Positions 36,886 to 63,085 of a stretch of DNA of 64,000 nt are shown here, one piece after another (positions within the stretch are counted from its first letter, which is position 1; each line of letters starts with the position of its first letter). Source of the stretch: Halichondria panicea (taxonomy: Eukaryota; Porifera; Demospongiae; Suberitida; Halichondriidae). The stretch spans positions 4,655,047 to 4,719,046 of the forward strand of contig NC_087388.1 in assembly GCF_963675165.1 (NCBI RefSeq), in the 5' to 3' direction. The notes under the pieces were generated by a model, which did not search any database, was not told the DNA's origin, and saw nothing but the letters and a program-made list of their open reading frames with translations. A program made the position numbers and the translations under genes.

Positions 36886-37028
36886 CTTATACCACTGAAT
36901 GTGCCCATGCAACAGATGTTCATAGCTCCACATGTGTAAGTACTACATATAATGCATGCATGCAGGATCATACAGTATACTGTGTACAACACATGCAATG
37001 CAGAGCAACAACCAACAAGAGCCTCATC

Positions 37029-40000
37029 ATGATGCAAGTACAAGCAATCGTGCTCAGCACAGTCCTACTATTATGCTTGCCAACGTTGTCCATGTGTGAG
37101 TATCAAGTGATCAACACTGGTCGATTCGGAACAGACCGGAATACAATTGAGCTAGAATGCAGAAACAATGGTGTGGCATTACAAGGAGCGGTCTTTTGGC
37201 TTAATCGAGTCAGCAGAGAGAATGAGTTACTAGCATTGGGAGTTGATGTGACTGTACGTCCAGATGGTCGAATCGTGTTTCAGATTACAAGAGAACTGGA
37301 GGGAACATTCTTTTGTGGTCAAAACGTAGAAAATTTCGGTTCAGTTGGACAACAGTTGATTGGTGAGTGAGTGTAATTGGTAGCTTTTTTTCTATGTTTT
37401 CAGCAGAAATGTGATACAATATAATTATATCCGTCATAAAATGCATTTAATATGCTTCATTTTCTCTATAATAGCTTATCCTGACCAATTCCTATCACCA
37501 AATTATGAACGGACTTTCTTTGCCAAGGTTGGCACCACTGCTCGCCTGCATTGCTCCATTCTACCCGGGGCACTCAGGGCACAGTACTTTGCAGATTGGA
37601 GAAATGCCACAAGCTCTATAGAGGTTGCTAGACTCGATGGACCACGAGCCTCCTCTCCACTCTCCACCACTCCGGACCCAAGGTGGGTGTAATACAAGGA
37701 GTAAGTTACTGAATCCGAGCAAAGCGAGGCTATATAATGAGGTCAATATAATGAGGTTCAATCGAGATCCATCTTGGTGATAGTGCCAAGGGCGTATGAA
37801 GAGAAGAGGGCATGCAACTACAATCTATGGGAGGGGCGTGTGCATTAAAAATAGATTGCACGTGCACTTAATCCATAATAGTCACCAAGCCAGTTAGCTA
37901 ACTCGCTGGACCACATCTGACCTCAAAGCGAAACTGTGTTTATTAAAATAGATTCAAGACATTTTAACGTAAAACCAGGGTAGCTCAGATGGCTAGTGTG
38001 AAGACTTCCCCATGCATGCAGAATAGTATAATTATTATACAAAAATAACTGAATGAAAAAACAGAAACAACTTACTGTCCAACTTGGTGTGACGTCTAGA
38101 AAAAAGGAACATTTTTGTGCATGGGATGAGGTGCCTATACATGTGGTAAAGCATTAATGTTGGTTGTGCTTGTGGATGGGTGGGATGAAAAGACGAATAC
38201 AGGTTGAGTTTTGTAACAGTTTTGCACATTCCTACGGTTTTTATTATAATAAGTCAAAAGTTTGTTATAAATTATATACATGTACCGGTAATCAGATTTC
38301 CATTCTTTGCTTTTTTGTCGGTAATTTTGTCAAAAGCCACAGAAATGAAATGCAACAGCGATCGAGGACTTGCACCATGTGTATATTATATCATGACCCC
38401 TAGTAATTATATAACAATATACAGTGTACGTAATACACAATGGCCAGCAGTGATTAAACCTTTGATCAGTATTTTCAAAGCTGGTATATAAATCATATAA
38501 TTATTGTGAACTGCTTTAGGGTACGTCTCTAAGATTTTTTATCTGTGGAGTGCAGTCATAATTATAGTAACAACTATTGTCCATCCCATCCCTCCCATGC
38601 AGGTTCATGGTTGATGAGACGACGTTTGCCCTCATTATTGAGTCAGTGAGTCTATCTGATGCAGGTAACTACCAGTGTGTGCTCGGTGTGAGGGACCCGG
38701 CCGGTCTGCCTCTTATCTATCCCCAAACTGAGACACTCAACCTGACACTCGTCGTCTATCGTAAGTCTGAGGGATTATTCACAGAGGGATCTCTTCCAGA
38801 TTCACTTGGTCCTTTTCTTATATTTGGTATAAGTCATACTTGTAATATCGTAGATGGACTTGAATAATAAAGAACTCTGATTCATGACAAACAACACAGG
38901 TATTGAAGTGAACTAACTAGAATATGTATAAATATATAGAAGACAGCCGTTACATCATAAGTACAGTAGACACAGTTTACAACTAACACCTGATATAGTC
39001 TATTCAAGTTATGTCCTGCAAAGGCATGAATGTTCAAGACATCACAACACTCTAGCCCTGTTTCTCCTGCCTGCATGAGGCCGCTAATTCTATAACTACC
39101 GTATAGCGGGTAATTTCGGGGGACAAAATATTCGTGGTTCAGCAATATTGAGACATTTCGTGGATAATATTTTCGTGGTTGGAGCTTGCACTGCAGGTAA
39201 AGGTAGGCAAGGTCGCTTCATTCGTGGGTAAAATATTCGTGGTCAGACTTCCAACCACGAAAACCACGAATATTTTGCCCCACGAAAATTACACGCTATA
39301 CGGTATACTATCCTAGTGCATGCGAACGTGAAGCTTTTAATATTGCTACATATGCTTAAATATTCCTACGTTTTAATATAGATTGCTATCTTCAAAACAT
39401 GTATAATTATACCTTTGCCATCCCATTTAAGTTTATCATTGTCTTGTTACATATTATAATTATAGAGGCTCCAATAATCACCGAGTCTCCAAAGAACCGC
39501 ATCATTGCTCTTGATGACAACAGACCGAACCAAAGTGCCACCTTCCATTGTCAAGCAAGAGGGCAACCAAAACCTGAAATCAAATGGCTGCACCACTCAC
39601 CAGATATTGAAGACGATTTAAACTCAGACACGATTGGGAAATACTTATTACGTACAGATGCTGTAAGTACGCCAACTGGAGATTACATTGTCAGTAGTTG
39701 GTTAACTGTTAACACGGTGGATGCTTTTGATGCGGGTGAGGTGGTGTGCAGTGTAATGGCCGATGATGATGAACTACCTACTGATTTACAGACAGTACAG
39801 ACAATGGCTCAACTAGCTGTAATTGGTGAGTATTATATCTATACATCATCAAAATTAATGGTGTGATTATAACAAACGGCTACTTATTACTTGTCAATGA
39901 GTCAATGACTATTTGCTAAATCAACTGTATTTGTTTGTGGTATAATGTAATCAGAATGATTGCTTTTGTAGTGCGGTTGGTGGTAAAACAATACTGCATG

Positions 40001-41318
40001 TGCCATGCACGCTAAGTGGTTAATTACCTAAGTGCTTAAGATTTAATATGTACACAGATCGACTCATGCATGTGAGTACCTGTTTTGACATTCACATCAT
40101 TTTTTTTTTACAGGGAGCTTTAACAGTTTGGACCTACTAATTTCAACAAATGGCGACATCATATTTAAACTAAGACTACCTTATCCTATTCTGGTTCCTG
40201 TGCAACTATCTATCATCTACATGGACGCTAATGACAACAGAAAAATCTTTTCAAAAGTGACTGAAAATGCGTACATCGGTACAGACCTAATCACTCATTT
40301 TGAGCCAAGTTTTCAAGTCCCCACTGATTTTAACACTGTCAGGATCAGAATAGCCCTGCGGTATCAGAGACTACAAGGACCATTCAATGAATCGCCACTC
40401 ACATTCGGTATGTACTTATAGATGATGCATGAGTTATACTTATTCATGTTCATTGATTTGATTTGCTTAATTATTCTACACTCATATGTGACAGGCTCTG
40501 GGAAAAGGGCCAATTGGAGCCCATTGAGCAATAGTTACTTTCTTGGCTTATAGTTATCTAACTCTACAATCTTTCTACTACCTCTCCGCAAAATCTCTTT
40601 CCAACAAAGCGCTTTGTCTAAGCATCCACCATTACCTTACTTTTCCCAATTTAGTGAGTGAACGTTTCTCAATACTGCCCATGCACATAACTCAGGCATG
40701 GAACGAGGTATGTGCACACTAAGCATATCAATGCGTAGGCAATTCTTTGCTCTATCATCTGGTATATAGATCACAAAAATTATAGCTTGCGCTAATTGGG
40801 CCCTTTTCCCAGAGCCTGTATTTTCTTACGAGGTGCATTACATTTAATTATTCACATAGCAGGTAATTTGGGGGGAGGGTAATTTTGTGGTTGAATCTTC
40901 TTATTTGTTTACAGATATCCGACGTCCAAATTTTTTCAGAGAGGAGGAAACCAGTGTCAAGAGTGTGACTATCATCAGTATAGCTGGATCAGTCGTTGCG
41001 ATCTGTGTAGTCATCACTGTTTTGGTTGCAGTATTAACTTGTATCACATGTCGAGAAACGACAAAGCGCAAGCTGAAAGCAGCTCATGAAGATAAAAACT
41101 GCCACAATTTGGAAATGAAAGAACGCAATCTGGAAGAACGCAATCTGGAAGAACGCAATCCTCAGCGCACAATTAAACGGACTAACTCCCTTCCCCACCT
41201 TAACATTGAAAAATGTGAAGTATATCTGCTTCCTCCTGGCACAAGATCTAAACAAGATTTCTTGGCACTTTTTCCCCATATAGCCAGCAGTTTGTATAAG
41301 GAAATTTCCTCCCCCTAA
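37029..41318 (+). CDS. Ig-superfamily transmembrane receptor IgR1 (585 aa)
   Basis: Exons: 37029-37362, 37475-37682, 38603-38760, 39466-39825, 40114-40407, 40915-41318. Phases agree (1, 2, 1, 1, 1). Signal peptide in about the first 22 residues (IVLSTVLLLCLPTL). D1 (to 111) is V-like, with LEC, VFWLN and ITRELEGTFFCG. D2 (112-233) is V-like with both canonical Cys (LHCSIL; DAGNYQC) and is split by an intron. D3 (234-353) is I-set-like (FHCQARG, IKWLH, GEVVC). D4 (354-451) is a Cys-free beta-sandwich, FN3-like. A membrane helix lies at about 470-497, and the cytoplasmic tail is 88 residues and charged, with a small ERNLE repeat. No ITIM/ITAM is visible. Very close paralogue of IgR2 in the ectodomain. 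The architecture suggests a cell-surface recognition receptor; the ligand is unknown. Confidence 0.9.
37787..37930. repeat. Copy of the dispersed element that seeds the 37-bp satellite
   Basis: CAAGGGCGTATGAAGAGAAG and the following 100 bp resemble the segment from 15590 in the TBC intron, including the GCACGTGCACTT region. It lies in IgR1 intron 2. Confidence 0.6.
39097..39305. mobile_element. Foldback MITE in IgR1 intron 3
   Basis: Begins TACCGTATAGCGGGTAATTT and ends with the inverse (AAAATTACACGCTATACGGTA), TA-flanked, 209 bp. Inner arms TATTCGTGGTT and AACCACGAA also pair. Absent from the matching IgR2 intron. Confidence 0.9.
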
Positions 41319-41635
41319 TATACTTCTGTCATGTCATAGATCATATAGCTAATAGCTGCTTATAATTAATATTGTGCAAGCTACTTGGGTGATGGGTGAA
41401 GTATTTATAGACTTAAATGAGAACGACATTTAATCTAGATTCAGATTATGCTTTTTGTGATGGGTGTTTCAGAGTTCACATTGTGGTACGTACGTGGTGT
41501 TGATTATAACAAGTGTGTTACTACAGTGACCCGGAACCTCCAAATAACAGACAAGTTGATGCATGCAGGTTGTTTTGTTTGCTATTCGGAGGTGTCCTTT
41601 TTATTGAGTGTTATACACAATGCATATAAGTATGT

Positions 41636-41810
41636 TCATTCTGACCGCTTGCATGACAATACCGCTTGCATATTGGTTCTGCATGACTGCTTGCATGATG
41701 ATACCGCTTGCATGTTCATTCATACCGCTTGCATATATTGGTTCTGACCGCCGCTTGCATGACGATTCATACTGCTTGCATGCATGTTTGTCTTGACCGC
41801 TTGCATGCCG
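41636..41810. repeat. Degenerate minisatellite (CCGCTTGCATGA units)
   Basis: About ten irregularly spaced copies of CCGCTTGCAT separated by short variable segments. Noncoding. Confidence 0.7.
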
Positions 41811-41880
41811 AGTTATCATTTTGGCACCAAAAACACACCATAAAATATTACCACTCAATATTGCTGAACCATGCACGAAT

Positions 41881-41920
41881 AGTTTGTCCCCCGAAAATTA
41901 CCCGCTATATATACGGTATA
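41881..41920. mobile_element. Solo right end of the TATAGCGGG foldback family
   Basis: CCCCGAAAATTACCCGCTAT followed by ATATACGGTA; no left partner was identified. Confidence 0.55.
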
Positions 41921-41925
41921 TTTGG

Positions 41926-42800
41926 AGTTGCATAATTATTCCTCCCTACTTAACAGTTCACACACAGTGATTGTTGTCTCAGCTCTAGCATTGTCTGGAG
42001 GGACAGCCCCTCACAACATGTGAGCCGGTTTGTGCCTTCTATAGAAGATTGCTTTATGTCTGTGACATGTACATGCATGCACGTGGTAATCCTATTGGGT
42101 AAAAATCAAAACTACACTGTAATAATAATGACTGCATGTGTATATATAATGTCCAGACCTGCAAATTTCTCATCTGCATGTGTGTATAACGGCCTTGAGT
42201 CATAGTATGTATTCTGTCATTGATATCTTGGTACTTATATACTGTGCTTAATTTGCAGTTCACTTGGATTTCTGGGACAATAATTATAGAAATACTTTTG
42301 TACAGTTTGCATGCATGCATGGGGCCATGTTTACTAGCACATAAAAATTATTATTTTGTAAGACATTATCAGTTACTGTTTGTATATAAACATATACAGC
42401 AATAATCGTTGCACACATTTTAACCCCATTTCCAACATCTATAGTGTCTCAAGCCATGAGCCAATTTTGGACTCATGCAATGGTATTGCACGCGTGATAT
42501 TGCTGCACATATAAGGTTGAACTATTTTAATATGAGCTATAGTTTGGCAAGCTCAATTGGTCAGTATAGTATTATGCAGTATAGATATAGCTTCCTGCAT
42601 GTGAGAAGATCCTTCATCCTTTCCTGTTCACATACTTTGTCCACTCATTTCAAGTTATACACTCCATACTTGCCCACAATCTCCCTTGCCATATGGACGG
42701 TAGTATTATGTTGAATACGAGATCTATAGTTCTAGATGTTTTTGGGAACGAAATATGATCTTGTGATCACATAAAATAGTACGGGGGATGTTAGATTAAT
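41926..42800. repeat. Block Y, diverged copy 0
   Basis: Shares order and words (GCATAATTATTCCTCC, GTGATTGTTGTCTCA, CACATACTTTGTCCACTCAT) with the two younger Y copies, but is more diverged. Confidence 0.75.
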
Positions 42801-43699: not shown

Positions 43700-43741
43700 C
43701 TCTAGTCCCGTCAGCCCCCCTCTGCCTACGCCACCGCTGGT
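43700..43741. mobile_element. hAT-like element terminus
   Basis: Read on the minus strand it starts CCAGCGGTGGCGTAGGCAGA and continues in a G-run, a typical hAT-type end. The other end was not identified. Confidence 0.4.
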
Positions 43742-43910
43742 TTAACACAAAAATCAATGATACCGGTGCTGTTTTAACATTGATATCAAGTAACACGTAT
43801 GTATATAGTGTGCTATTTTAGGAGACATTCGAACGACACGCTACCACGTGTTAAAATAACATGTTTGTTTTTACAGTGTATGACTCGGCATTGCATGCCC
43901 TATCATTTTG

Positions 43911-45345
43911 GAATTGCATAATTATTCCTCCTCACTTAACAGTCTCACACACACAGTGATTGTTGTCTCAAATCTAGCATTGTCTAGAGGGACTCACTGT
44001 ACCAAATATTAGTGTCTTAAGCCGTAAGCCAATTTTGGATTCGGTATATGGCTGTGCATTCTAAGCCTTACCTGTGTTCCTTGTTATATCTGTGACGTGG
44101 TGGCCCTGGGTATAGCACTACATGATATTGCTGTATATAAGGTTGAACTATTCTATAGTTTAGCGATAATGCATGTGTTTGTACTTAAGAAACAGGGAGG
44201 CTATAATTATAGTGTATCTTTGGGAGGATGCTATTGCATGCATGGATTTAATTCACTGAGTATGTTTAATTACATCTTATATATAGTTGAGTATTACCTT
44301 TACAATCACACATGCATGTACTACCATCAGCTCCCTTTGTATCTCTATAATTATGTGTGTTCAGTGTGCAATCCTTGCATATAATTATCAACTTTGGCAA
44401 GCTCAATCGGTTAGTATACATGCTTTATAATTATAGTAATGCAATGCAATGCTGTGAGATTCTGAAGATGTTATAATCCTTTCCTTTTCACATACTTTGT
44501 CCACTCATTTCAAGTTTCTATAAAAGCGCTGCAATGGGTTAATTTTCACCGCTATAATTATACACACTCTATAGTTGTTCCCAAAATCCCCCTTGCCTTG
44601 GAGGGTAGTATGTTGGGAAGGAAATGTGATCTTGTGGTCAGACTATACATAGAATCGCACATAATTGTGGGTAGCTATATATAGCATATGCCAAATATGC
44701 ATGGTTGTGGTGCAAGTCGTATAATATTATGGCTGTGCGTTTTAGTACCGTATATAGTATAGGGGGATGTTAGAGCTGATAGTAAAGTTTCTGCAAACTG
44801 CATGTCATGTGTATGGCTTCATGCATGTGTGCATGCGTTGGGAAGTACCTAGTGCACATGTATAATACTATAATTATGCATGTATTATGCATGTTTCAAT
44901 TGTTCTTTTATGGTCATGCACATGAGAGCATATTAAAATACTGGTCTGTAATAGGTTCACACCATTTAAGCCAGCAGGAACATTCCCTCAGATTGAATGT
45001 ATTTTGGGTCTATATGCATGCCTTTGTGTGCATGCATAAAATTATATGCGCCAGAGACATACGATCATTATTATGTACATGTGTCTGTCTGTGCATTCCA
45101 TGCAGTTGTAATTTCTAAACAGTTACGCAATTAATAGGAACACAGTTAAGAGATTCGTAGGCTTCTCGGCACGTTTTATTGTTCTGTAATACATGTAGTA
45201 GCTGTTTTTTATGCTATATTATGGACGGAATTACACTCTATAAACAGCAACTTATTATTATTTGCATCGATGTGTGAAACATTCTAAAATGGAATCATAA
45301 TAATTATAATTAGCATGCTCTGCCATGTACTTTTAGGACAACGTA
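43911..45345. repeat. Block Y, copy 1
   Basis: About 1.4 kb closely similar to 48516-50015, in the same orientation. The similarity stops at TTTTAGGACA, exactly where the IgR3-derived 56-bp segment begins. Confidence 0.95.
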
Positions 45346-45401
45346 TTCTTAGCTCTCTTTGAGTGCTGTCTATCCAATAGAAAAGATTTGGATAGTCAAT
45401 T
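45346..45401 (-). pseudogene. 56-bp fragment of IgR3 exon 1
   Basis: Identical over all 56 bases, and in the same orientation, to 59588-59643, which encodes the conserved FYWIDSTQREL segment of IgR3 D1. It lies precisely between block Y copy 1 and block X copy 2. It is not part of any gene here. Confidence 0.9.
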
Positions 45402-46211
45402 CTGTCTGAGATGAAATTGTTGAGTACAGATCCAAAATCCTTTCATGCATAGTCAGCATATATTTCGTGACATTTACACAAAGTATGACCAAGACTTCAG
45501 TATGGTGATCACATGCACTGAGACGGTAAAGACCCACTAGACAATTAGTGACCTACATTACCATCCACTTGGATAAAAGTTCTGCGAGGGACGCAAGAAA
45601 CTGCCTATTTCGAAAAAGACTAAGGGCTATGATTATAAATTATTAGCCTATTTTCCTACAGGCTGCTTTCGGGAAGTCATAACTTTTGTGAAGATTGCTT
45701 GCAATTAATTAGTAAAGACGGTTTGTTATTTTCTAGCAGAGGTATTATAGCTTCCTCTATCTAGCTATGAACCCAGTCACTCTCCTCTGACTCAACAAGG
45801 CCATATATAGGCATCGATATCCTCACTGTCTAGCTGCAGAGGAGGAATACCAGGGTCAATAGGGTCCCGTTTAATAAAATATTTAACATTCTTGTTCTCA
45901 GATTTGACTTATACAAGCATGTATATATACATGCATATTCTCACCACTTAGCATGCATGTGTAGACAACTGGCGCAATGATATACACCCGATACTTCCCA
46001 TTTAGCGTAGTACCGTCCTTTTCGGTGCTTTCTTCTCCACAATCCTACATTTCAAACATTTTGTGGTCTACTGTCTCTGTGCATATATGCCCCAAGGGCA
46101 TACGATAATATGCATGGTGTGTCTGTCTGTGTAATCAAGCTGTTTCAGTGCTTTCCTCTTCACAATTCTACATTTCAAACATTTTGTAGTCTACTGTCTC
46201 TGTGCATATAC

Positions 46212-47083: not shown

Positions 47084-47814
47084 CCCCAAGGGCATACCAT
47101 AATATGCGTGGTGTGTCTGTCTGTGTGATCTAGCTGTTTCGGTGCTTTCCTCTTCACAATTCTACATTTCAAATAATTATTTTGTGGTCGGTCTACTGCC
47201 TTTGAGGGCATCCGGTAATAATTAGGCGTGTGGCTTCTATTGTTCTGCAATAAAGCCAATGAAGCACGTTCTATAGGTGTTCTATTAGAAATAGAGCCCA
47301 TAGCAACAATAAGTCGCGTGCATGAGATGTAAATCTATAATAGACGCTAAGTGCTATTATAGTGCATTTTAGACCAATTTAGGTGGTCGAATAGCGACGT
47401 TCCTACACCCATGCATAGTTAGTTGTTTTACCAGATATAAACTCGACCTATTATTATCACAACGCTGAGGCAGTATACATATAAGAACCTTGATGTCTAA
47501 TTTTAGCGAATTTGTAAATGTCTTCACTAATAAAACACTATGAACTCATTAAACATTTTGTTCTAATGAAATGTTTGAGAGTATGCTAAGCAAGCTAGCC
47601 CTTTCATTTATATCTGACTCCAAACTTTCAATTCAACCGTTGACGAATTTTTAAATTTGCTGCAATATCACCAAAATTCAGTACCGGCTTAAAAATCTGA
47701 AAACGTACCCGTCTATTATATGTAGTATTAGGTACGCATAATTCTATATGAAGTGAGCCTATAGCCTCGTGTATATTGCCCATCATTACTATCTCTACCC
47801 TTTTTGTCATGCAG

Positions 47815-48059
47815 GTGGACCACTGCACCTCGAGGACATTGAAGATTCTCTTTCACTAACTACTAGACAATCAACACCCTGTATTATCTGTCCCTGGCAC
47901 AAGTGGTGCTTTGATCTGAGTACTGGGAGACAGTTAGACCCACTTGGGAGAGAGCAGCACATACAATCTTATCCTGTTCGAGTAGATTCAGATACTGGGA
48001 CTATTTCTATTGGTTTTGCATCGTTCGATTCATCTTGTTTTACTGACTATGACTTCTAG
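47815..48059 (+). pseudogene. Duplicated last exon of the Rieske gene, copy 2 (intact)
   Basis: 245 bp like the original, with the GCAG acceptor and the frame open to the same stop. CPWHKWCFD is intact. Few amino-acid changes (A to E, G to R). It has no upstream Rieske exons of its own. It could only be expressed by long splicing from 31953 or in a chimeric transcript. Confidence 0.8.
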
Positions 48060-48515: not shown

Positions 48516-50015
48516 ATTAGCATTGTCTAGAGGGACAGCCCCTCACAACATGTTGATTGTGACACGTGCATGTAATGTCCTATAATTGCATGGGGAAAAT
48601 CAAAAACTATATGACTGTGCAATGTGTATGTGCATGTCACTGTGTGTGTTTATTCGATATCTTGGTACCTATATATACTCACTGTACCAAATATTAGTGT
48701 CTCAAGCCGTAAGCCAATTTTGTTGTGCATTCTGACCTGTGTTCCTTGTTATATCTGTGACGTGGTGGCAGCCGGCCGCCCTGCATGGGTATAATATTAT
48801 AGCACTACATGATATTGCTGTATATAAGGTTGAACTATATTCTATAGTTTAGTGATAATGTGTTTGTACCGTTATAAGAAACATATTTGGGAGGCTATAA
48901 TTATAGGGTATCTTTGGGAGGATGCTATTGTATTGCATGGATTTAATTCACTGAGTATGTTTAATTACATCTTATAGTTGAGTATTACCTTTACAATCAC
49001 ACATGCATGTACTACCATCAGCTCCCTTTGTATCTCTATAATTATGTGTGTTCAGTATGCAATCCCTTGCATATAATTATCGACTTTGGCAAGCTCAATA
49101 GGTCAGTATACATGCTTTATGCAATACTTCCTGTGAGATTCAGAAGATGTTATAATCCTTTCCTTTTCACATACTTTGTCCACTCATTTCAAGTTTCCTA
49201 TAATTATATAAAAGCGCTGCAATGGGTTAATTTTCACCGCTATATACACACTCAATAGTTGTGCCCAAAATCCCCTTGCCATGGAAGGTAGTATGTTGGG
49301 AAGGAATTGTGATCTTGTGATCAGACTATACATAGAATCACACATAATTGTGGGTAGCTATATATAGCATATACCAAATATGGTTGTGGTGCAAGTCGTA
49401 TAATATTATGGCTGTGCGTTTTAGTACCGTATATAGTATTAGGGGGATGTTAGAGCTGATAGTAAAGTTCCTGCAAACTGCATGTCATGTGTATGGCTTC
49501 ATGCATGTGTGCACTGGGAAGTACCTAGTGCACATGTATAATACTATAATTATGCATGTATTATGCATGTTTCAATTGTTCTTTTATGGTCATGCACATG
49601 AGAGCATATTAAAATACTGGTCTGTAATAGGTTCACACCATTTAAGCCAGCAGGAACATTCCCTCAGATTGAATGTATTTTGGGTCTATATGCATGCCTT
49701 TGTGTGCATGCATAAAATTATATGCGCCAGAGACATACGATCATTATTATGTACATGTGTCTGTCTGTGCATTCCATGCAGTTGTAATTTCTAAACAGTT
49801 ACGCAATTAATAGGAACACAGTTAAGAGATTCGTAGGCTTCTCGGCACGTTTTATTGTTCTGTAATACATGTAGTAGCTGTTTTTTATGCTATATGGACG
49901 GAATTACACTCTATAAACAGCAACTCATATTTGCATCGATGTGTGAAACATTCTAAAATGGAATCATAAATAATTATAATTAGCATGCTCTGCCATGCAT
50001 GTGCTTTTAGGACAG
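48516..50015. repeat. Block Y, copy 2
   Basis: Same orientation and order as 43911-45345, with small indels. It is followed by about 500 bp of unshared DNA and then the third Rieske exon. Confidence 0.95.
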
Positions 50016-50508
50016 TGTAAACAATAGCTGTAAAACAGACCAACTATAAAGTGATTCGTGAATAGCATTAACTGCCATTATGCCAGAGGATGTGCCAGGA
50101 TGTTTGGTCTGTGACTGTTTTCCAGGATGCTTGCAGCTTTGGCTATACGCATGGGAACTATTTGGAGACGTTCGTTGTGCGGCTAAATTACCAGACCATG
50201 TGTTCACCGCTAAGGTTAAATTATTTACTAACACTATAATAATGGCTTTGCTAGTACACATTTTACTCAGTTTGCATGGTTATAGGACTGTATAGTAACC
50301 CGGGTATGGTGTAATGTGTTTATTAATGATTGACATGTGTGCATAATGTATAACGCAGTTATGGCCAATTTTGGGGTCCAATATTGACATTCCAGTAGAT
50401 CTATACTAATTTGCTTAATTAGATTGAACATGAGATCGGTATACTGCTCTCAGTACATGTGTAAAGTGAGCCTCGTGTATTTTTGTTACAATTAATCGTG
50501 TCATGCAG

Positions 50509-50755
50509 GTGGACCACTGCATCTCGGGGACATTGAAGATTCTCTTTCACTAACTATACTGGACAATCAACACCCTGTATTATCTGTCCCTGGCACAAGT
50601 GGTGCTTTGATCTGAGTACTAGGAGACAGTTAGACCCACTTGGGAGAGAGCAGCACATACAATCTTATCCTGTTCAAGTAGATTCAGATACTGGGACTAT
50701 TTCTATTGGTTTTGCATCGTTTGATTCATCTTGTTTTACTGACTATGACTTCTAG
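50509..50755 (+). pseudogene. Duplicated last exon of the Rieske gene, copy 3 (frameshifted)
   Basis: 247 bp instead of 245. Two extra bases (ACTATACTGG against ACTACTGG) lie before the second cluster motif and shift the frame, so CPWHKWCFD is lost. The acceptor is still present. Confidence 0.85.
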
Positions 50756-51217: not shown

Positions 51218-54200
51218 ATGATACAAGTACAAGAAATCGTGCTTAGCACAGTTCTACTATTATGCTTGACAGCATTATCCAAGTGTCAGTACGAAGTGAT
51301 CAACACTGGTCGATTCGGAATCATCCGGAATACAATTGAGCTAGAATGCAGAATCAATGGTGCGGCATTGCAAGAAGCTGTCTTTTGGCTCAATCGAGTC
51401 AGCAGAGAGAATGAGTTACTAGCATTGGGAGTTGACGTGACTGTACGTCCAGATGGTCGAATCGTGTTTCAGATTACAAGAGAACTGGAGGGAACATTCT
51501 TTTGTGGACAAAATCTAGAGAATTTCGGTCGAGTTGGAAAACAGCTGATTGGTGAGTGGGTGGTAGCTTAATTGCTTCATTTTTTTAAAATGTGATAAGA
51601 GACTGAATGTTTGCTCAATCAGTGCTTGCACTAAAACTGAATAGTTAGTAAATTCTGGGGGGCAAAATATTTGTGGTTTTCGTGGCTGAACACTGGACCA
51701 CAAATGAAGCGACCTTGCCTACCTTTACCTGCAGTGCAAGCAGCAACCACCAAAATAAGATCCACGAATTGACTAAATATTGCTCAACCACGAATATTTT
51801 GCCCCCCCCCCCCCCCTGAGAATTACCCGCTATACGGTATTATTCATTTTTAGTGCAAGCACAGGAAACAGGGATAAGGTCACACTTTATGCTTTGTGGT
51901 AAGATAGAGTCTTGCATGAGTGTTGCTGGTTTCTGTTGTGTGCGTGACATCCTCTAGCTATATCCATCGACATGTGGTAACTACTATTATGTTTTAACAA
52001 CAGAAGTGGTGCAAACTATATAGAATTCCCTATAGCTAATGTGTTCGCTTACCTCTGTATAAAGTGCAATCTGTCCCAGATTATTAATGACAGCAAGCAT
52101 TGTGCAACCGCACCAACTATTTTTTGCAATTTACAGTACATACAGTTATAATATGTAGTACAGGAAGGCTCGTTTCATTACATACTCGCGACATAAATTG
52201 AAGTGACTGTTTCATCGTCACTACTTTTCATGATAGTATAAAACCCGGCTTGGAAACAAACATTAATCTAGGTACTCTCCCAAAATGTTTGATGTCCATT
52301 TTAGTCATTGCATTGTCTGTAAAGCAGCTTTAACAATCCCACTGATAGGATGGAATTTTAAATAGCAGGTGTGTGTGTGTGTAAATTGAAGCCATGTGTG
52401 TATCATCACATGGTCCGAAATACCATGCAGTAGTATGACATGAGTAAGAAGGTGGTTAACGTAAGCTAACTGTAATGTATATTTTTCACCAGAAAATGAT
52501 TTAATATCTGTTTAGTATAAGAAGGTGGATAACTGAAACTGATGGCTTTCAGAAAACTGCTCTTTGATTAACTGATTTCCTTTTCCACAGCTTATCCTAA
52601 CCGGTTCATACCACCAAATAATGAACGGACTTTTTTTGCCAAGGTTGGCACCACTGCTCGCTTGCGTTGCTCCATTCTGCCTGGGGCACTCAGGGCACAG
52701 TACTTTGCAGACTGGAGAAATGCCACAAGCTCTATAGAGGTCGCTAGACTCGATGGACCACGACCCTCCCCTCCTTTCTCCACCACTCCGGACCCTAGGT
52801 GGGTGTAATTATAATAAAATAGGCGTAGGAATGAGCACCAAACAGTCTATTAATACTCATAACTTATGATGCAAACTTTTAATATCTAATCAGTTTCCCC
52901 AATTGTTTACATCATTCATTGTCAACATGTAGGGGATTTCTTTAGGGTTGATCCCTGGGGTTTTTTTTTATTATCTAGTCAGCACAAACTTAAGCTGATG
53001 CATGCGGGTTACAGTTCGCATATAATTTATACAGTATATACACTAAATCAATACCACATGCAGTTCTATTTATAATATTATTGGCAGTATTTTAGTGTCC
53101 CTTCGTCTTGCCATCCAGATTCATGGTTGATGAGACGACGTTTTCCCTCATCATTGAGTCAGTGAGTCTATCTGATGCGGGTAGATACCAGTGTGTGCTC
53201 GGTGTGAGGGACCCGGCCGGTCTACGTCTTATCTATCCCCAAACTGAGACACTCGACCTGACACTCATCGTCTATCGTAAGTCTGAGGGATTGTTCACAG
53301 ATTCACTAATAATTAATTTTGGTCTTTTGGTATTATAGTATAGTTTTAATAGAGTAATGGGGAATGTTTCTCCTCTCCTATATATATCTATGAGCCGCCA
53401 TGCATGGGTGCACTCTAGCTATCCCAGTGCATGTTAACGTGAAGCGTTTGGCTTCCGTAAGCATAATTACATGTGTATGTATCAAACCATCTATATAATT
53501 AGATCATAATTACCTTTGCCATAATTAATTAGAGGCTCCAATAATCACCGAGTCTCCGGAGAACCGCATCATTGCTCTTGATGACAACATACCGAACCAA
53601 AGTGCCACCTTCCATTGTCAAGCAAGAGGGCAACCAAAGCCTGAAATCGAATGGCTGCACAACTCACAAGAAATTGAAAACGATTTGAACTCAGACACAA
53701 CTGGGAAATACGTAGTACGTACAGATGCTGCGAGTACACCAACTGGAGATTACATTGTCAGTAGTTGGTTGACTGTTAACACAGTGGATGCCTTTGATGC
53801 GGGTGAGGTGGTGTGCAGTGTAATGGCCGATGATGATGAACTACCTACTGATCTACAGACGGTTCAGACAACGACTCAACTAGCTGTAATTGGTGAGTAT
53901 TATTATCAATTTGCTGTGGTTATTGCTTTGATAGAACATAGCCTCATTCATAAATAATATTAATGACATCCGTTAATCCGAATGTATTCGGATGGAGTCT
54001 GTACAATTATTATAGTGGGGTTAATTATGTTGGTGGTAAAATACTCTGCCACACACACTTTATATAAGTGGCTAATTATCTAAGTGCTCTGTACACAAAC
54101 TTCTGAGTGTGAGTTACTTGTTGTGACATTCACTTTTCTTTTTACAGGGAGCTTTAGCAGTTTGGACCTACTAATTTCCACAAATGGCGACATCATATTC

Positions 54201-55386
54201 AAACTAAGACTACCTTCTCCTATTCTGGTTCCTGTGCAGCTATCTATCATCTACATTGACGCTAATGACAACAGAAGAATCTCTCCAAGGGTAACAGAAA
54301 ATGCGTACAACGGTACAGACCTAATCACTCATTTGGAGCCAAGTTTTCAAGTCCCCACTGATTTCAACACTGTGAGGATCAGAATAGCCCTGCGGTATCA
54401 AAGGCTACAAGGACCATTCAATGAATCGGCACTTACATTTGGTATGTATACCTAGTAGCTTATGTGAATGATGTGTTTTTTTAAGCCCATATCCGGCTAA
54501 CAAGTGCACAATACACAACAATTGAATGCAACATTTGGACTGTGCTTTTCGATATATACAGTCCATATCGATATCATATTATTTTCTGTTTTTTACAGAT
54601 CTCCGACGTCCAAATTTTTTCACAGAGGAGGAGGCCAGTGTCTGGAATGTGGCTATAATCAGTATAGCTGGATCAGTCATTGCGATCTGTGTAGTCATCG
54701 CTGTTTTGGTCACATTGCTAACTTGCATCGCATGTCGACACACGATGAAGCGCAAACATACCAGTCACATGGCAGACATTGCTAGAATGGAAGCAGGTCA
54801 TAACCAAATTCTAGCAGAAAAACATAGCGATAATCAAGCAGAATTGAACATACTTCGAGAAAACCATGAGCAGATTATTAAAAAACTTGATGAAAATAAT
54901 GAAGCAAAACTGAATACATTGAAAGAAGAAAACGATGCAGAAATTGAAAGACGCACTCTTGAATATGAAAGAAACCAAGAATCAACAAATCAAAAATACA
55001 AACATGAGCTTATGTTACTCGAAGCAAAACATGAACACGAAACTAGACTGAAACTCTTGGATATGTATTCCGATAAAATGTCAGCTTGCAATGGTGGGGG
55101 CTTTAAAATTACTTATATAGTTGGTAAAACAGAAATATCAATTGAAAAGAAGAACACCAGTTGTGGGGATATGATAGATGGACCACATACAATGTACACA
55201 GCACAAGCAGTGGATAAGCGACCAATGTTACTCAGAGGAGAGAGTATCGACTATGGGAGCAACTTCCAGTTAGAGCAAGAGTGTGTGATTGACTGTTTCA
55301 AGAATATTGTGGAAGCCAGTATGAAAGACTCAAGGATTGGACCAACACTACGGAGATTAGTATCAACTGACCAATTAGAAAGATAG
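51218..55386 (+). CDS. Ig-superfamily transmembrane receptor IgR2 (713 aa)
   Basis: Exons: 51218-51551, 52591-52798, 53119-53276, 53533-53892, 54148-54441, 54599-55386. The first five have exactly the same lengths as in IgR1 (334, 208, 158, 360, 294). The ectodomain has the same order: signal peptide, V-like D1, V-like D2 with both Cys, I-set D3, FN3-like D4. The membrane helix (about 470-496) is near identical to IgR1, then the protein diverges. The tail of about 217 residues has a long highly charged coiled coil (for example NEAKLNTLKEENDAEIERR) and a C-terminal segment with ITYIVGKTEIS that is not recognised. The tail may oligomerise or bind the cytoskeleton (inference). Tail-to-tail with IgR3, 317 bp between stops. 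Confidence 0.9.
51642..51839. mobile_element. Foldback MITE in IgR2 intron 1
   Basis: Right end GAGAATTACCCGCTATACGGTA is clear, the left end is decayed (AGTTAGTAAATTCTGGGG), and the inner arms contain a CCCC run and CACGAATATTTTG. Not shared with IgR1 intron 1. Confidence 0.75.
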
Positions 55387-55560
55387 CTATAGTTATTGTT
55401 AGTAGAATTTTTTAAACTTCACTTATTTTGTTCAACACTTGTTCACTGTAAACTCACTATAAATTATTAACAATCATGAAAAATGGAGTGTCAAACTGTC
55501 AATGCTAGCTATAATATAACACACAGTCTATATATATAATTATGTAAAACAGATACGTTT

Positions 55561-55690
55561 TAATAACATAAAACATCTCAAATAAAATGCATCATTTGAA
55601 ATTTAATGTAGAAATGACATAAATTTCTGTCAGTTTAACAGCACGATGATGCATCCCATATAACATAATTATGTGTTTTTGGTGTGCATG
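55561..55690. repeat. 140-bp direct repeat, copy 2 (between IgR2 and IgR3)
   Basis: Partner of 36743-36885. It ends only 14 bp before the IgR3 stop codon, so it is probably inside the IgR3 3' UTR. Confidence 0.9.
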
Positions 55691-55703
55691 ACTAAAAATA
55701 AAC

Positions 55704-58316
55704 TTACACACAAGTTTCTTTTTGGGTACAATATCCTTGCCCACTATATACTGAAACAGTCTCCTCTATATCAGCTGGTTGTCTTGTATCTGCAGCGTCT
55801 TCACTATTTAGCATAGTATATGTGATAGACGGCTTGAGCAATTCCTTGATAGTTTTAAAAGTATTCTTAGTTTCCTTCTCTTCAGCACTCTCTCGGAAAC
55901 AAAATGGTCGCCAGTGTCGTTTAGTTGTACTTGATTTCCTCCTGGTAGTCACAGGTGGTTCTTCCTCAGGGGGCATAGCACCTGGATATGTCGGACCAGA
56001 AACTGCACCTGCCGGTTTGCCGTTGGTTTCTTCAGATGGGATCTTAGGTGATTTTTGCTTCAAAGCTTCCAGTACCTGGTTTAGTGTTAATTGGCCAGGC
56101 AAATTGTCGTTGACAAACTTTGTTTGTGCACCTTTTGTGTTGGCTTTGAAGGAGCATTCCAAGGCTTTTTTTCGTCCGAAACAGAGGCAGAGTAGAACAA
56201 TCAAAACTATGGCAATGATGATGAGTGCAAGGAGCAGGAAAAGTCCGGGAACGAGGAACGTCACAAGGATAATTGACAGCTCAGTTGGTAGCGATCGATC
56301 TGTGAATGTAGTAACAATGAGTATATACTGTGCGTACGCATATAATGATATTGCGTGAAAATTGAAGTAAAACATGCTTTGTGTCCAGTCCAAAATAGCT
56401 CCCAACAAAATAATGACAGGAAACGATTAATTTTGCTAATTAGCTTGAAAAATGTGCTTATACTAGAACGTGGGTGCACCTTTTTAATTAGATTACGGCT
56501 ATTTCGACGCTAATAACAATGAAACCTGCATGTCTATAGCGGGCATACCAACGGTGGCTGTAATAAAGATGTGGTCACATGTTATAATAGAGATTTTGAG
56601 GCCCATTTTACCTAACTGTATACGAAATAATTATGTGAACCTGAAGTAGCCATTAGCGGAATTTCACTGAATCAGCGACTCTGAACCGTGCTTCAGGCGT
56701 ATTGTACCTCATACACATCGCAAAAATTAATTGTCAGAGGCTACTCTAACTTACAATTAGTTACTTTCCCGTCCACCCCCCGCATGCATACTGATCATGA
56801 GCTACATATCACATTGAACTGTGCTACTGATCATGACCTCTGAGCTGTAGGAAATCATATGGTTTTGTTATTGCATCAATTTTAAAGGATTTCATGATAA
56901 TTATTATTGCTATTACATAATACAAACACACTTTCTGCTCGCATCCTCTTTTTAAAATTGGAGTGGCCTAACGTTATAGAGGGCATGCACTGTTGTGGAG
57001 GGTAACCTGCTTTTACTGGCTAGGGTGAACATGCACAACAGACATGCTCACTCTTACCGTGTGTAACTTGGTCTCCTTTCAGAGGTCCAGTATTAGACTG
57101 ATGCATTAGTGCAACATCAACTGTAAAGCGTTGGTAAGGCATCGTGTCATCAAAGTGAGTAATTTCCTGCGACTGAGTGAAACGGCTGAGAGTTATGGTA
57201 TTGAGTGAATCACCAGTGTCAATATCAGTGTACTTGATAAACAGTTGCACTTCAGCTGGTATGGGTACCTCAAGAAATACCCGAAAGATAATAGTTTGTG
57301 AGACTGTGATGAATGTAGACAATCTCTGCACTTCACCTGCAGCATGCAATATAGAGTATATGAAATGGACAGGTTACAAAACACATTATCCACAAAGGAA
57401 TATCATAAAAAGACTCCCAAGACAGTCTCCTATACATGACAGTATGGTCAAATGAACTGGTCAACGCACTCAATGTTCTTCTTACTGATGTGTTGATATA
57501 CAGTAATATTATGCATTGTGCACACTGAAAGTGTAACTCGTATACATGTGTGCGAATTATAGCACTTACCTAACACTGACAAGAAAGCTGTTGCAGTGGT
57601 TTTAGCCGACTCGCCATCACCCGGTCTAATAGTGCCTGTACAAGTCACGTTCCCACTGTCATAATTATCCAGACTCTGAATCGCAAAAGAGCTCTCAAAA
57701 ATAGTATCTTCTACTCTTGAAAAATTCAATATGTATTTGTTTCCGTTCCTCAAAATTTCTTTGCCGTTATGCTTCCAGGAAATCTCCAGTGAAGGGTATC
57801 CTCTTATTCTGCAGTAGTACGTTACTAATTGGTTGGCATCAGAAGTGGATAAGACAACAACTTGAGATTCAGGTGGTTCCATAAAAGTCGGTGGGACTGT
57901 ATAATTATAGGAAAACAATCAATTTGTGTGACTTCATAACCTTTGGAGTATAATTATAGTAGTATAGGAGTTTATCTACAGTGCACCTGTTTTAGAGGGT
58001 CACCAGTGGCAGTATAATTATTATAATAAACAGAGCCCATACTAACACACATTGAGGTTCAATAAAGGTAGTGGGACCGCATGGGAAATAGTGTGAATCA
58101 TAATAAACTATAGCCTATTAATTTGGGCTATAGTAGTAGGTCCGGAGTTTTTTTACAGCGAAACGTGTTTTAGAGGGTCACCAGTGGCAGAATTATAATA
58201 AAGAGGTGGTTAAGACTGACTATGTGATACTTTGGCTTCTGGTTCAGTCTAATTGCATGTGGGCGGGAGGATTTTGCATTATTACCCTATGCGTGTGCAG
58301 CAGGGGTAGAGTGATT

Positions 58317-58352
<36 letters not shown>

Positions 58353-59783
58353 TGTTTGTGTGTGGACACAAAAATGAGCTGTTTGAGCGAACTAGACAAT
58401 TTCATGGACTGCTTTAACTGCTAATGAGACAGTGGTTGAAAAATGAATATAGCTAGTTGAAACTTGTAGGCGATCTTCGAGTGACAAAAAACACTGTTAT
58501 CTAATCAATCTAATCGTTGTTTTTATGAATTTACGATCATGCATTCCCCATACAAATATTAAGGTCATTATGGTAAAAAGTTGTATCCATTTTGCTGCTG
58601 TGCGTTGAAGCGTTGAAGCTCAACGCACAGAGTGCATCTTGTATTACTAAGTTTAACCTGATGAATAATAATTATTATGAATATGCAAATGAGTTTCATT
58701 AACATACTAGCCATAATTAATGATGCGAGGGTGTACCAGAAACTACTTGGCATGACAGCAATAAAGTTTCACTGTACTATAGGGAACACATGCACCGCTT
58801 TTAATACACATCTCACTAGCCAAGAGGCTATAGAACTGAATGCTATCCTACTACAGCTGGCACGCACAATGCATCACCATGACATTGTACTTCCATTAAT
58901 TGTACAATTCTATTTCTGAATGGCTTCTGGTAGCCATGTGCATGCACTGACGGTACAGGGTGATATAAATCAAGGCTTCTCTCACCATACACATCAAGGG
59001 TCACTCCTAGCCTCTGAGTCTGCGTGTACAGAAACATTTGTCCTGCAGGATCAGCCACACCCACAACCCCGAAGTATATGCCTCTGTCATCGAAGGATAC
59101 TGATTGAATAGTGAGAGCAAAAGTTTCTGGATTAACAAAGTATCTTGAGTTGGGATCCAATGGCAACAAACTTCGACGAGGGCCTTGGATTCTACCGATG
59201 GTCTGTGAACTGTTGTCTAGCCAGTCAACGTAGTATTGTGCTAATAAACTTCCAGGGAGTACTAATGGATTGAGCACTGCATCACTACCGATTCGCACTG
59301 TTTCTTTCTTTGATTCAAGTTGAGAAGATATTAATGGAAAAGCTGCAGATATATAGGGGAATTAAGAACAAGCACAAGCCATTTAGCGCTGCTTCAATAA
59401 ACTAATGGACATGCTATAGTAGATTATGCACTGCACGTAACTTTTTTCTAGCACTCACCTATAAGAGGTTCCATTCCACTAATGGTGTTCACATCACTAC
59501 CACAGAAGTACAATCCTTCAAGTTCTCGAGTAATCACAAAGTTAAAGCCTTGAGAGTTTTGTGAATACTTTTCTTCTCCCAGTATATTTCTTAGCTCTCT
59601 TTGAGTGCTGTCTATCCAATAGAAAAGATTTGGATAGTCAATTAGGTTGACATCTCTGCAGTTTAATGCTAGTTGGTTTTGATTGATTCCTGCTCCTCTG
59701 CTTGTGATGAGCTGAAAAGGACCTTGCTGGGCACTGCAATACTGCAGCAGCCCGTTGAGAGATAGCAGAAATAGTAGTAGCAT
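55704..59783 (-). CDS. Ig-superfamily transmembrane receptor IgR3 with ITIM-like tail (627 aa)
   Basis: Exons: 59783-59459, 59342-58986, 57896-57570, 57336-57058, 56299-55704, all joined in phase 1. Signal peptide (LLLFLLSLNGLL). D1 is V-like with LNC, FYWID and ITRELEGLYFCG, the same motif as IgR1. D2 is one exon and lacks both canonical Cys (F-strand RGIYFGVVG). D3 is I-set (YYCRIRG, ISWKHNG, VTCTG). D4 (336-429) is a beta-sandwich. The membrane helix (about 437-468) is long and very hydrophobic. The tail of about 160 residues is Pro/Ser/Thr-rich and contains ITYTML (588-593). This fits the ITIM consensus (I/V/L/S)xYxx(I/V/L), the SHP-phosphatase docking motif of inhibitory receptors. The motif is short, so signalling is an inference. 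Confidence 0.9.
58317..58352. repeat. (TG)n microsatellite
   Basis: About 16 TG units in an IgR3 intron; here it is not at an exon edge. Confidence 0.9.
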
Positions 59784-60111
59784 TTCTTTACTTGTTCATT
59801 AGAGTCTAGTCTATCCTCACAGTCACTGTTTCTACTGAGTATAAAATGTAGTTCATTTGCTTGTATAAATTGTCGGTTTGTTGAGCACGTGACATTGACG
59901 ACGTCACCGCCGCAACTAGTATTTTGTGGTAAAGTTATGATGTTATTATGCTAATTGTAGTCTGTGGTAAAATTTGTGACCCATATTTCTGATTACGAAA
60001 TTTGATGAATTGTTTTGGCATTGAAAATTCACAAATAGAAAACAATTAATACACACAACTAAACCAACTGAAATGTACAACCATGCATATGCACTTCATA
60101 AATTTATATAT
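59784..60111. promoter_or_regulatory. IgR3 upstream and IgR4 3' flank
   Basis: 328 bp containing the IgR3 promoter by position. TATAAAA lies about 55 bp upstream of the IgR3 start codon (minus strand: ACTCAGTAGAAAC lies between). No other site was recognised. Confidence 0.3.
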
Positions 60112-62594
60112 CTATTCGTTAAGAGACCTAAATAATTCTTTTCCTTTTTGAATTGCTTCTTCTCTAGTGCATTTTTTATACGGTTTTATTTTTCTTCTTT
60201 CTCTTGCACATGATTTTCCTTTTGTTTTAATAGGAGAGAGATCACTCGGAGGCACACAAGTGACTCGTTTATTGTTATTGTCAAAGACTACACTGAGGGT
60301 AAGTGCTGACGGTTCTTCCGCGTTTTCCATATGTATTGAAGACTGAGCCGATGTTATGCAATTATACTCTTGGCATGGTGGTGGACCACTTGAGGATACA
60401 ATTTGTGTGCCATTGTGAACTGTCTCGTATTGCTCTTCTATATGTTGAAAATAATCTAGCAAATCTCCGACTTTTTCACACTTTTGATCACAAGTGGATT
60501 TGGGGTTATCTTGTACTTTTTTAAGGTTTTTGTAGAATTTATAGCTACCTGTTTCAAGGTAATTGTGTTTGCGAATGTCTTCTCTATCATTTATCCAGCA
60601 CTTGATGCAGCATAAGATTGAAATACAGAATAGAAGTAAGCACACTGTGACGAGTCCACTCCCTACTGGTATTGCTATTGTGATCAGTCGCTGGTAGAGG
60701 GAAAACTCTGCATATTAAAAAAGGGGTTATTGGTGCATGCAAGTTTATTCTATAATATTATCAGACGAGGCATGAAGCATACACATGCAACTATCTATAC
60801 TGCTCATGTTAAAATTCCTTAACTTAGCAAATTAAAGCATGGCCTGTGTTTATTGAGAAATTGATAAACACGATAATTTATTTTACCGTTTTTTATCTCC
60901 ATTGACAGATCCTTGCTCATGGGGAGACTGGATCTGGATCCTCTGCTTTCTACAACCGTCACAGAAACAATAGACGTAAACAATGCTTCTGGAGGGTCAT
61001 CGTAGACAAAGGTTAGTGAATTAGTGTTCATGTATACTTCTGATGTCGTAAGAGGCTCTTGCCCATCCTCAAAGTCTAGTTGTATCCGTAAGCCAATTGG
61101 TATCATCACATCATCACCGATATTGACAATGAAGATTAACTTATTCTCAACTGTCCGGTAAACATCAACATCGAAAATGTCTGCATGAAGATGGAAGCAC
61201 ATAATTATACTTATACTGGTATCAGTTATAGCTTTTCATTGCAATTTATATCTGTAAATTTTGCTTACTTAAAACAGAAAAATTTGCAACTATTTTTGAG
61301 TCGTTCACAGGAGGTATATCGCCACCAGGTTCCACAGTAGCCACACATCTCACGCTTCCGCTGTCTACAGGATGAATGTTGTGTATCATCAAAATCCTGG
61401 TCACTGTGTCTTCACTGTCTTGGTTGGGAGCCATTTCTTTAACGCTGTATTTTGCAATTGTAGAAGAGGTTGAGACTGGGTTTCCATTGTGTTTCCACGA
61501 AATAGTAGGAGCAGGAAAGCCCTTAGCTGTACATGTGAACTGCGCAACAGCATTTTCTTCGTACTTCATGGTCACGCTCACTAGTTCCTGCATGATTCTG
61601 GGTTCTTCTGCAAATAGAACAGCTAATTGCATGCATACAGGTGTAATCTACCTACCGACCACCTATCTGCATGAGGTTAATTTTTTAGATCTAACATCTA
61701 AATAAGCGTAAAAAATCCTACAAAGTAGTTCTGTATAATTATAAGATAGTGCTCACCGTAAACTTCCAGACGTATACCCATACTTATGGTCTGCATATAG
61801 TTCATTTCAGAGGCACCTTCTGCTTCCATAACTCCGAGTTCCCCAAAATAATTTCCAGCATCAGTATGACGAGTTACACTCTCTATTTTCAAAGAAAAGG
61901 TGTTAGGCTCCACAGAAAATCGTTCGATTCCTTGATTTATTACAGTGTTCCGGAGTCCTCTGATTGCACCTACCGATATTTCATTGGTACCAGTCCTATT
62001 CTTCCAGTCAATGTAATATCGAGAGAACCAAATACCAGGTCCAATGTACGGGGGAAGTATCGCTGTAGTTCCACTCTTTGCTCTAATGGTGATACTCCCA
62101 TCAAGTGCTACTTGATGGTCAGTTGATGGTTGAGCTGTAATAAATTATAGGGCATGCATAAAAAACTGCCTATTATATATTAAAGGGTCTATATGCTGTA
62201 ATGTATGGAAGGAATTAAGCTGTTTAGTATCTGACAATAATATAATTATGCTGGAACAAAATTAAAGATACTCACCTATTACATTCACAAAATCACTGCC
62301 AGAAACTATATTTATATCGTTACTGCAAGTGTACTGCCCCTCATTTTCCAGTCTATCCACTAAAAAAGTGTAACTGTCAGTGGCTGCATCCATTACTGAG
62401 GATTCAAATGTGCCATTTTGAAAGAAAAAGGCACTACCATCGAGGGTTCCACCTCCATTCAGTCGACAGGTCAGTTGTACGCCATTTGAAGAAAATCTCG
62501 TAAAAACAATTTCATAAATTTGAGCATCTGCTTGGCTGGCTAGAAAGCAGGTCATCACCAAGACCACTGCAACAGATACTCCTCCTCCAATCAT
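60112..62594 (-). CDS. Ig-superfamily transmembrane receptor IgR4 (about 641 aa)
   Basis: Exons: 62594-62276, 62134-61757, 61607-61269, 61180-60887, 60707-60112, all in phase 1. Start chosen at MIGGG, because GCAG directly before ACTATG looks like the acceptor of a 5'-UTR intron; an ATG at 62603 is the alternative. Signal peptide VAVVLVMTCFLASQADA. D1 has LTCRL and EGQYTCSN but lost the C-strand Trp. D2 is one exon and lacks the canonical Cys pair (AGNYFGELG), as in IgR3. D3 is I-set (FTCTAKG, ISWKHNG, VRCVAT). D4 is a beta-sandwich. Helix at about 452-478, Cys-rich at its inner edge (CISILCCIKC). The tail is about 160 residues, basic at its end, with possible phospho-Tyr sites (QYETV, EYNCI) that do not meet ITIM rules. 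Confidence 0.88.
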
Positions 62595-63085
62595 AGTCTG
62601 CATAAAAAAGAATGCTTTAAATGTAGCCAATAAATAATTAGCTGCTAGATCTATAGAATCTTAAGCATGCCAGTATAAGTAGATCTATAGCTATAGTTGT
62701 ATCTACAAGCATGTATGTATACCTAATAGTAAGCTATATATATACCTTATACAGTATAATTTTACATAGCCATAGAGTAATTAAAGAATGTTACCTTTTT
62801 CGTTTATTAGTAGAGTTATAGGTGTAGTTCAGCTAGCAGTCTGCAGTCCAGAAAGCTGTGTATATAGACAATCAGTATAAAGTCTCTGATGCTTATGGCA
62901 GTAACTAGCTAGATATTATAGCACTGAATGTCAGTGCATGGCCTTTTATTAGCTACAGCAGCCCACCCCACCCACACATTCAGTAAAACGTACATGATGA
63001 ATTCATTTACATCCTTGTTAATAAGGATAGATAAAAAAAACCACAAAACATTACATTGCATTATACAATCCAAAAAAGTGATATC
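62595..63085. other. IgR4 upstream region
   Basis: 490 bp. Holds the likely 5' UTR intron and promoter of IgR4 and the 3' flank of the next minus-strand gene. No coding signal. Confidence 0.4.

Follow-up and report, generated by a model that had tools for sequence, protein, structure and literature searches.

A stretch of 64,000 nucleotides from the demosponge Halichondria panicea (NC_087388.1; C12:4655047-4719046 in a genome of 131.5 Mb and 39 contigs), hereafter the window, carries at positions 37029-62603 four complete, intact genes for single-pass receptors, termed R1 to R4. R1 and R2 lie on the forward strand, R3 and R4 on the reverse strand. The four proteins have a common plan, consisting of a leader, an immunoglobulin (Ig) domain D1, a V-type domain D2, an I-set domain D3, a domain D4 without a match, a membrane helix and a cytoplasmic tail. 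Together with two relatives elsewhere in the genome, these genes form a small immunoglobulin superfamily (IgSF) family. In our opinion, it is an even bet that its one ectodomain plan is wired to different outputs, i.e., that the proteins are recognition or adhesion receptors whose distal V-type domains would bind outside partners. An earlier note on this DNA, made by a model from the letters alone, had described four paralogous Ig receptors with unrelated tails and had proposed an allorecognition or immune receptor complex. The architecture and the private tails are confirmed with corrections, and the recognition reading is partly supported.

The gene models, built from six-frame translation and inspection of splice sites, are as follows.

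37029..41318, + strand: R1, six exons, 585 residues; exons 37029-37362 (leader and D1), 37475-37682 and 38603-38760 (D2), 39466-39825 (D3), 40114-40407 (D4), 40915-41318 (helix and tail); evidence from splice phases, Pfam and dN/dS.
51218..55386, + strand: R2, six exons, 713 residues; exons 51218-51551, 52591-52798, 53119-53276, 53533-53892, 54148-54441, 54599-55386; evidence from splice phases, Pfam and dN/dS.
55704..59783, - strand: R3, five exons, 627 residues, tail with ITYTML; exons 59459-59783, 58986-59342, 57570-57896, 57058-57336, 55704-56299; evidence from splice phases, Pfam and tail comparison.
60112..62603, - strand: R4, five exons, 644 residues, C-terminal part of the tail basic; exons 62276-62603, 61757-62134, 61269-61607, 60887-61180, 60112-60707; evidence from splice phases, Pfam and tail comparison.

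The presence of four paralogous genes and their shared plan are borne out by these models: the frames are open, all 18 introns are of the GT-AG type, and every domain border is in phase 1, in R1 to R4 as well as in the two outlying members R5 and R6, which corresponds to the symmetric phase-1 exons of IgSF type. An extra phase-2 intron inside D2 is common to R1 and R2 and is absent from R3 to R6. A hydropathy scan of R1 to R6 gives one strong membrane helix per protein; the hydrophobic leader exceeds the Kyte-Doolittle threshold in four of the six (R1, R2, R4 and R6), R3 and R5 having a shorter or weaker one. Over the whole protein, identity to R1 is 79% for R2, 31% for R3 and 26% for R4.

The cytoplasmic tails of the six members are unrelated beyond the helix, as the earlier note had claimed for the four genes in the window. 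The clearest case is the pair R1 and R2, whose DNA is 86% identical up to positions 41071 and 54755, respectively, where homology is lost within the same terminal exon. The parts that follow are private to each gene.

41072..41318, + strand: private tail of R1; homology to R2 stops at 41071, inside the terminal exon.
54756..55386, + strand: private tail of R2; long, rich in K and E, a coiled coil by eye.

An alignment of these two tails scores 27, against a maximum of 30 for shuffled sequences. In unfiltered BLASTP comparisons of the tail exons, the R1/R2 match extends past the helix into about 35 charged residues, and a 25% match between R1 and R6 (E 9e-4) continues from the helix further still; all other pairs match only round the helix or at E > 0.01. 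Both extensions are taken as an effect of composition, because the R1/R2 DNA shows no homology there. Protein and DNA searches of the genome found no second copy or donor of the R1 and R2 tails, the sole other match to the R1 tail (E 0.08) containing three stops; protein searches with R3 and R4 likewise found no second copy of their tails.

The same pair shows how abruptly the tails part. BLAST homology between R1 and R2 begins some 18 bp upstream of the ATG and ends shortly past the helix; a tolerant alignment extends it upstream to 43 bp (score 31, shuffled maximum 29). Thus, the two genes share one ectodomain-helix cassette, which is preceded by different 5' DNA and continues into different tails. 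The ectodomains (428 codons, 47 residue differences, 89% identity) have a synonymous divergence (dS) of 0.165 (standard error 0.025) and a nonsynonymous divergence (dN) of 0.054, i.e., a dN/dS of 0.33 (Fisher P = 1.4e-7 for dN<dS). By domain, dN/dS is 0.36 in D1, 0.40 in D2, 0.30 in D3 and 0.25 in D4; it is 0.72 in the codons of the helix and juxtamembrane region. R1 and R2 are therefore under purifying selection, and nothing points to diversifying selection in a comparison of paralogues, which is blind to allelic diversity.

The introns of R1 and R2 hardly align, and the two genes match exon by exon. Where introns 1, 3 and 4 can be aligned, in 239 columns of approximately 2000-2500 intron bases, their distance is 0.153, which does not differ from dS (Fisher P = 0.81); this test is not final, since local alignment favours the most similar parts of an intron. 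It should be noted that R1/R2 intron identities of 60-70% count gaps or come from forced alignment, and the distance of 0.153 excludes gaps. The introns would accordingly have changed by insertions and deletions and not by extra time. As their distance equals dS, the difference between the tails is explained by replacement rather than by long decay: tails that share nothing at a neutral divergence of about 0.16 call for replacement and not drift, at least in R1 and R2.

Whole-genome searches with R2, R3 and R4 as queries, which more diverged members could escape, gave matches at E <= 1e-10 only to R1 to R4, to the two members below, or to one lone D2 exon.

C12:4997.5-5001.5 kb: R5, full member, 280 kb from the window cluster on the same chromosome.
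C2:2997.9-3002.6 kb: R6, full member on another chromosome.

Both are built of five exons on the same plan, with open frames. Weaker matches (E 1e-5 to 0.01), chiefly over D3, lie on C4, C8 and C9. Identities in pairs other than R1/R2 range over 22-33% in leader and D1, 27-53% in D2, 21-37% in D3 and 12-39% in D4. In an unrooted tree of the concatenated domains, R1 joins R2 with a support of 100, R3 joins R5 with 97, and R4 groups with R3 and R5 with 78; trees of single domains are poorly resolved. The cluster combines one recent pair with old members and does not stem from a single recent burst. For this reason the description of the genes as recently duplicated, given by the earlier note, applies to R1 and R2 but not to R3, which groups with R5, or to R4: by domain, these two are 12-44% identical to other members, apart from the D2 domains of R3 and R5 (53%).

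Membership of the IgSF is indicated by Pfam matches above cut-off on D2, D3 or both in all six proteins. D3 exceeds the cut-off as Ig_3/I-set in R1 to R5, and D2 exceeds it as V-set in R2 and R6 and falls just below it in R1 and R5. Both canonical cysteines of D2 are aligned in R1, R2 and R6; that of strand F is missing in R3, R4 and R5. In D1, the alignment places cysteines of strands B and F in all six members. No confident Pfam match was obtained for D1, the best (E 0.0047) being to the general ig family, which was matched in three of the six members. Compared with the PDB, a profile of the six D1 sequences listed 44 sequences, by name all Ig-domain molecules; eight of these, FcRL5 (5.6e-8) and seven pIgR/secretory component sequences, have E <= 0.016, and the remaining 36 have E values of 0.14-1.7. 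The D2-D3 region of R1 has its best sequence matches in Robo, DSCAM and contactin, which are IgSF proteins of adhesion and guidance, and the family profile behaves likewise. The PDB chains 8ovq and 8qpx, which we take to be from the sponge Geodia, rank among the generic Ig matches and prove nothing about kinship.

Two assignments within the ectodomain have to be corrected. The D1 motif ITRELEGxxFCG, which the earlier note had not recognised from any named family, is real in R1 to R3 and has altered forms in R5 (INKNYEGRYLCG) and R6 (ITRDLEGMYTCG). However, it fits an ordinary Ig strand F: it occupies the position of that strand and includes the second Ig cysteine, and the most suitable reading is a variant form of the common Ig strand-F signature, because D1 has the cysteines of strands B and F and its profile matches Ig molecules. 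The FN3-like nature of D4, also proposed from the letters, was not confirmed. The PDB gave no match to D4 up to E 5; in Pfam, searched up to E 10, FN3 is absent and only two unrelated families appear, at E 0.12 or worse. When the D4 profile was compared with four yardsticks, FN3 came first (score 6.2, E 0.23; D1 to D3 scored 0.8-3.2), and the sensitivity of this method is such that the proven Ig domains D2 and D3 reach only E 0.006 against each other. The resemblance of D4 to FN3 is suggestive and no more.

The DNA around the genes bears traces of rearrangement. Between R1 and R2 lie two duplicated blocks, 43992-45340 (a copy of 48677-50014) and 45404-46202 (a copy of 33352-34157), which are joined by a piece of R3:

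45346..45401, - strand: exact 56-bp copy of part of the R3 D1 exon (59588-59643), joining the two duplicated blocks.

Its joints carry five and two extra bases, and the piece reads as a templated insertion at a rearrangement junction. Templated filler of this kind is typical of replication-based template switching. A further copy fits the same restlessness: R1 38462..39156 (+ strand, about 700 bp), which covers the later half of D2 and the introns on either side, is 96.6% identical to C12:4397.1-4397.8 kb (L065:4608-5294), some 296 kb away. This lone D2 exon, at C12:4397.2 kb, is surrounded by sushi-type exons, as judged by eye. Separately, a stretch of 769 bp is 99.35% identical between an R5 intron on C12 (L062:7722-8490) and a region within R6 on C2 (L064:6007-6775), with a 77% relative near R5; it is presumably a recent mobile element or exchange. 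A similarity between 36749-36883, upstream of R1, and 55563-55690, in the gap between R2 and R3, was considered as a duplication scar and ruled out: it is a dispersed repeat of about 130 bp, some 150 bp upstream of the R1 ATG; of 249 candidates, 40 were scored, and 39 of these are further matches.

We interpret these results as follows. The distal V-type domains may bind partners outside the cell (matrix, microbes or other cells), and the output of the receptor would be set by the tail. With ectodomains that are about 89% identical, R1 and R2 would probably engage the same or similar ligands and signal differently, as vertebrate receptor pairs do. Segmental duplication accompanied by template switching would be the way in which the locus evolves, and tails could be replaced by the same route; events of this type may have replaced the tail and the 5' flank in R1/R2, a step that no junction proves. 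The genes of the family are intact and, in R1 and R2, constrained, and their layout is parallel to that of clustered or paired IgSF receptors already known.

Several observations weigh against this interpretation. In D2, R3 has a weak V-set match and R4 has none, and R3 D1-D2 alone, compared with the PDB, retrieved only ICOS ligand at E 0.33. That R1 and R2 would have a common ligand is deduced from the identity of their ectodomains. No known signalling motif occurs in the tails at a level clearly above chance, as judged by shuffles for the immunoreceptor tyrosine-based inhibitory motif (ITIM) and by eye for its activating counterpart (ITAM), and the hand-picked helices have no charged residue in their core, hence no sign of an activating member of adaptor type. 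The ITIM was defined as the regular expression [SVILT]xYxx[IVL], with P values from composition shuffles. It matches R1 (SLYKEI), R3 (ITYTML) and R6 (VLYEEV) and not R2, i.e., three of the six family tails, with 1.16 expected (P = 0.08). The ITIM-like tail of the earlier note therefore exists as a pattern, but two matches in the four window tails, with 0.82 expected, are not clearly above chance (P = 0.18), and SLYKEI alone is within chance (P 0.10). Similarly, the tail that had been called basic is so mainly in the C-terminal part of R4, but the R4 tail as a whole has a net charge of only +3 over 161 residues.

Among other explanations, it is conceivable, if doubtful, that the genes encode ordinary adhesion molecules that arose by routine duplication and whose tails diverged without functional exchange. 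Purifying selection on R1 and R2 is in keeping with this, as are Robo, DSCAM and contactin as the best matches of R1 D2-D3. Compared with those proteins, the R ectodomain is short, with four domains, of which D1 and D4 lack a confident Pfam match, and no significant FN3 match was obtained. Against this explanation, drift does not account for the R1/R2 tails, which call for replacement.

Somewhat less probable is a family that senses microbes or damage, not allogeneic cells, through paired outputs. A shared ectodomain on different tails, as in R1 and R2, is the layout of Siglec-11/16 and CD300A/C, and near-identical ectodomains with unrelated tails also recall CEACAM. Unlike the vertebrate pairs, R1 and R2 have neither an ITIM or ITAM clearly above chance nor charged helices, and gene conversion of their ectodomains is not supported.

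An allorecognition complex in the manner of Hydractinia Alr, i.e., polymorphic homophilic receptors whose alleles decide on fusion or rejection, is improbable in our assessment. According to PMC11067881, the ectodomains of Alr1 and Alr2 are highly polymorphic, and 19 further full-length Alr genes of low identity and common plan are found in the reference (at least 41 loci in an earlier study); PMC13119343 gives 22 Alr-type genes in one Podocoryna complex and eight elsewhere. As in these complexes (PMC11067881, PMC13119343), the sponge genes form a cluster, encode single-pass IgSF proteins that follow one plan with low mutual identity, and have some members outside the cluster; they also have V-type distal domains and different tails. 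The layouts are parallel, but six full members were found here, not 20-40, and the close pair R1/R2 is under purifying selection, with a dN/dS in D1 of 0.36, well below 1. In addition, V-set clusters with more matches occur elsewhere in the genome. Thus, of the complex originally proposed, the clustered Ig paralogues, the different tails and the sharp R1/R2 tail replacement stand, but the role finds no support: dN/dS is below 1 in four domains, ITIM matches are not clearly above chance, full members number six, and rival V-set clusters contain nine and eight matches. Allorecognition is one possible use of these receptors, unsupported by the tests run, which do not demonstrate discrimination of self from non-self. 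Still less probable is the most far-reaching idea, a recognition complex of an early-branching animal in which six private tails read out one ectodomain plan, tails and 5' flanks being exchanged through template switching, and which evolved independently of both Hydractinia Alr and the vertebrate pairs. Gene conversion, which would keep the R1/R2 exons alike and leave introns and tails to diverge, is the least credible explanation of all. It was suggested by the exon-by-exon match, since contiguous alignments of 1.3-3.3 kb were obtained for three of four control Ig paralogue pairs from the same genome and three blocks of 0.6-0.9 kb for the fourth, L001/L005. It was dropped because the gap-excluded intron distance, in the test described above, equals dS and the introns have been changed by insertions and deletions.

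With one ectodomain plan and different outputs as the preferred interpretation, R1 and R2 amount to an experiment of nature in which nearly the same ectodomain is combined with two tails and two 5' flanks. With regard to sponge graft rejection, the authors of a graft transcriptome of Amphimedon saw no significant enrichment of cell-adhesion or aggregation-factor genes. The six-gene R family and the V-set clusters elsewhere provide a short list for resequencing across individuals.

Genome-wide, 36 V-set matches were recorded (150 of 172 candidates scored), with nine in C10:5.07-5.16 Mb and eight in C10:1.636-1.729 Mb. None is on C12, which is in part technical: the search works on single exons, and in R1 and R2 an intron interrupts D2. 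As candidates for recognition loci, the C10 clusters are at least as good as the R cluster. Like the R genes, they consist of neighbouring Ig receptors, and copies within the first cluster have different ends. Unlike the R family, the five members read at 5.07-5.16 Mb (L001, L004, L005, L006 and L008) are by eye membrane receptors with a single V domain, without the D1-D4 plan. Their proteins are 46-94% identical and have at least two kinds of end, the recent copies L001 and L004 differing from L005.

Other features of the window include an exon in three copies, which we take to be of a Rieske-like protein from its appearance.

35051-35333, + strand: Rieske-protein-like exon, first copy.
47777-48059, + strand: Rieske-protein-like exon, second copy.
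50473-50755, + strand: Rieske-protein-like exon, third copy.

Relative to the first, the second copy is 98% identical and the third 77% over its whole ungapped length, or 97.7% over 258 aligned bases. Tandem long open frames at 21395-23567, with DNA 78% identical over 935 bases, presumably encode 2-oxoglutarate/iron dioxygenases, and an open frame of 760 codons at 5345-7624 presumably encodes a cadherin-repeat membrane protein, both judged by eye.

Among further searches, a mitochondrial cox1 fragment was seen to read TGA as Trp, innexin gave two weak matches slightly over the cut-off, and one pattern for 18S had no match. Finally, a survey of the papain family gave 77 matches in the genome. 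Four genes were read, and two of these were compared with the PDB; their best matches are cathepsins, and the sole entry named as a silicatein, 2vhs 'CATHSILICATEIN', stands far down one of the lists. In one papain-family gene (L072, C9:2570213-2570782), SSWAFS is found at the expected active-site cysteine and the histidine is changed; the protein is probably inactive.

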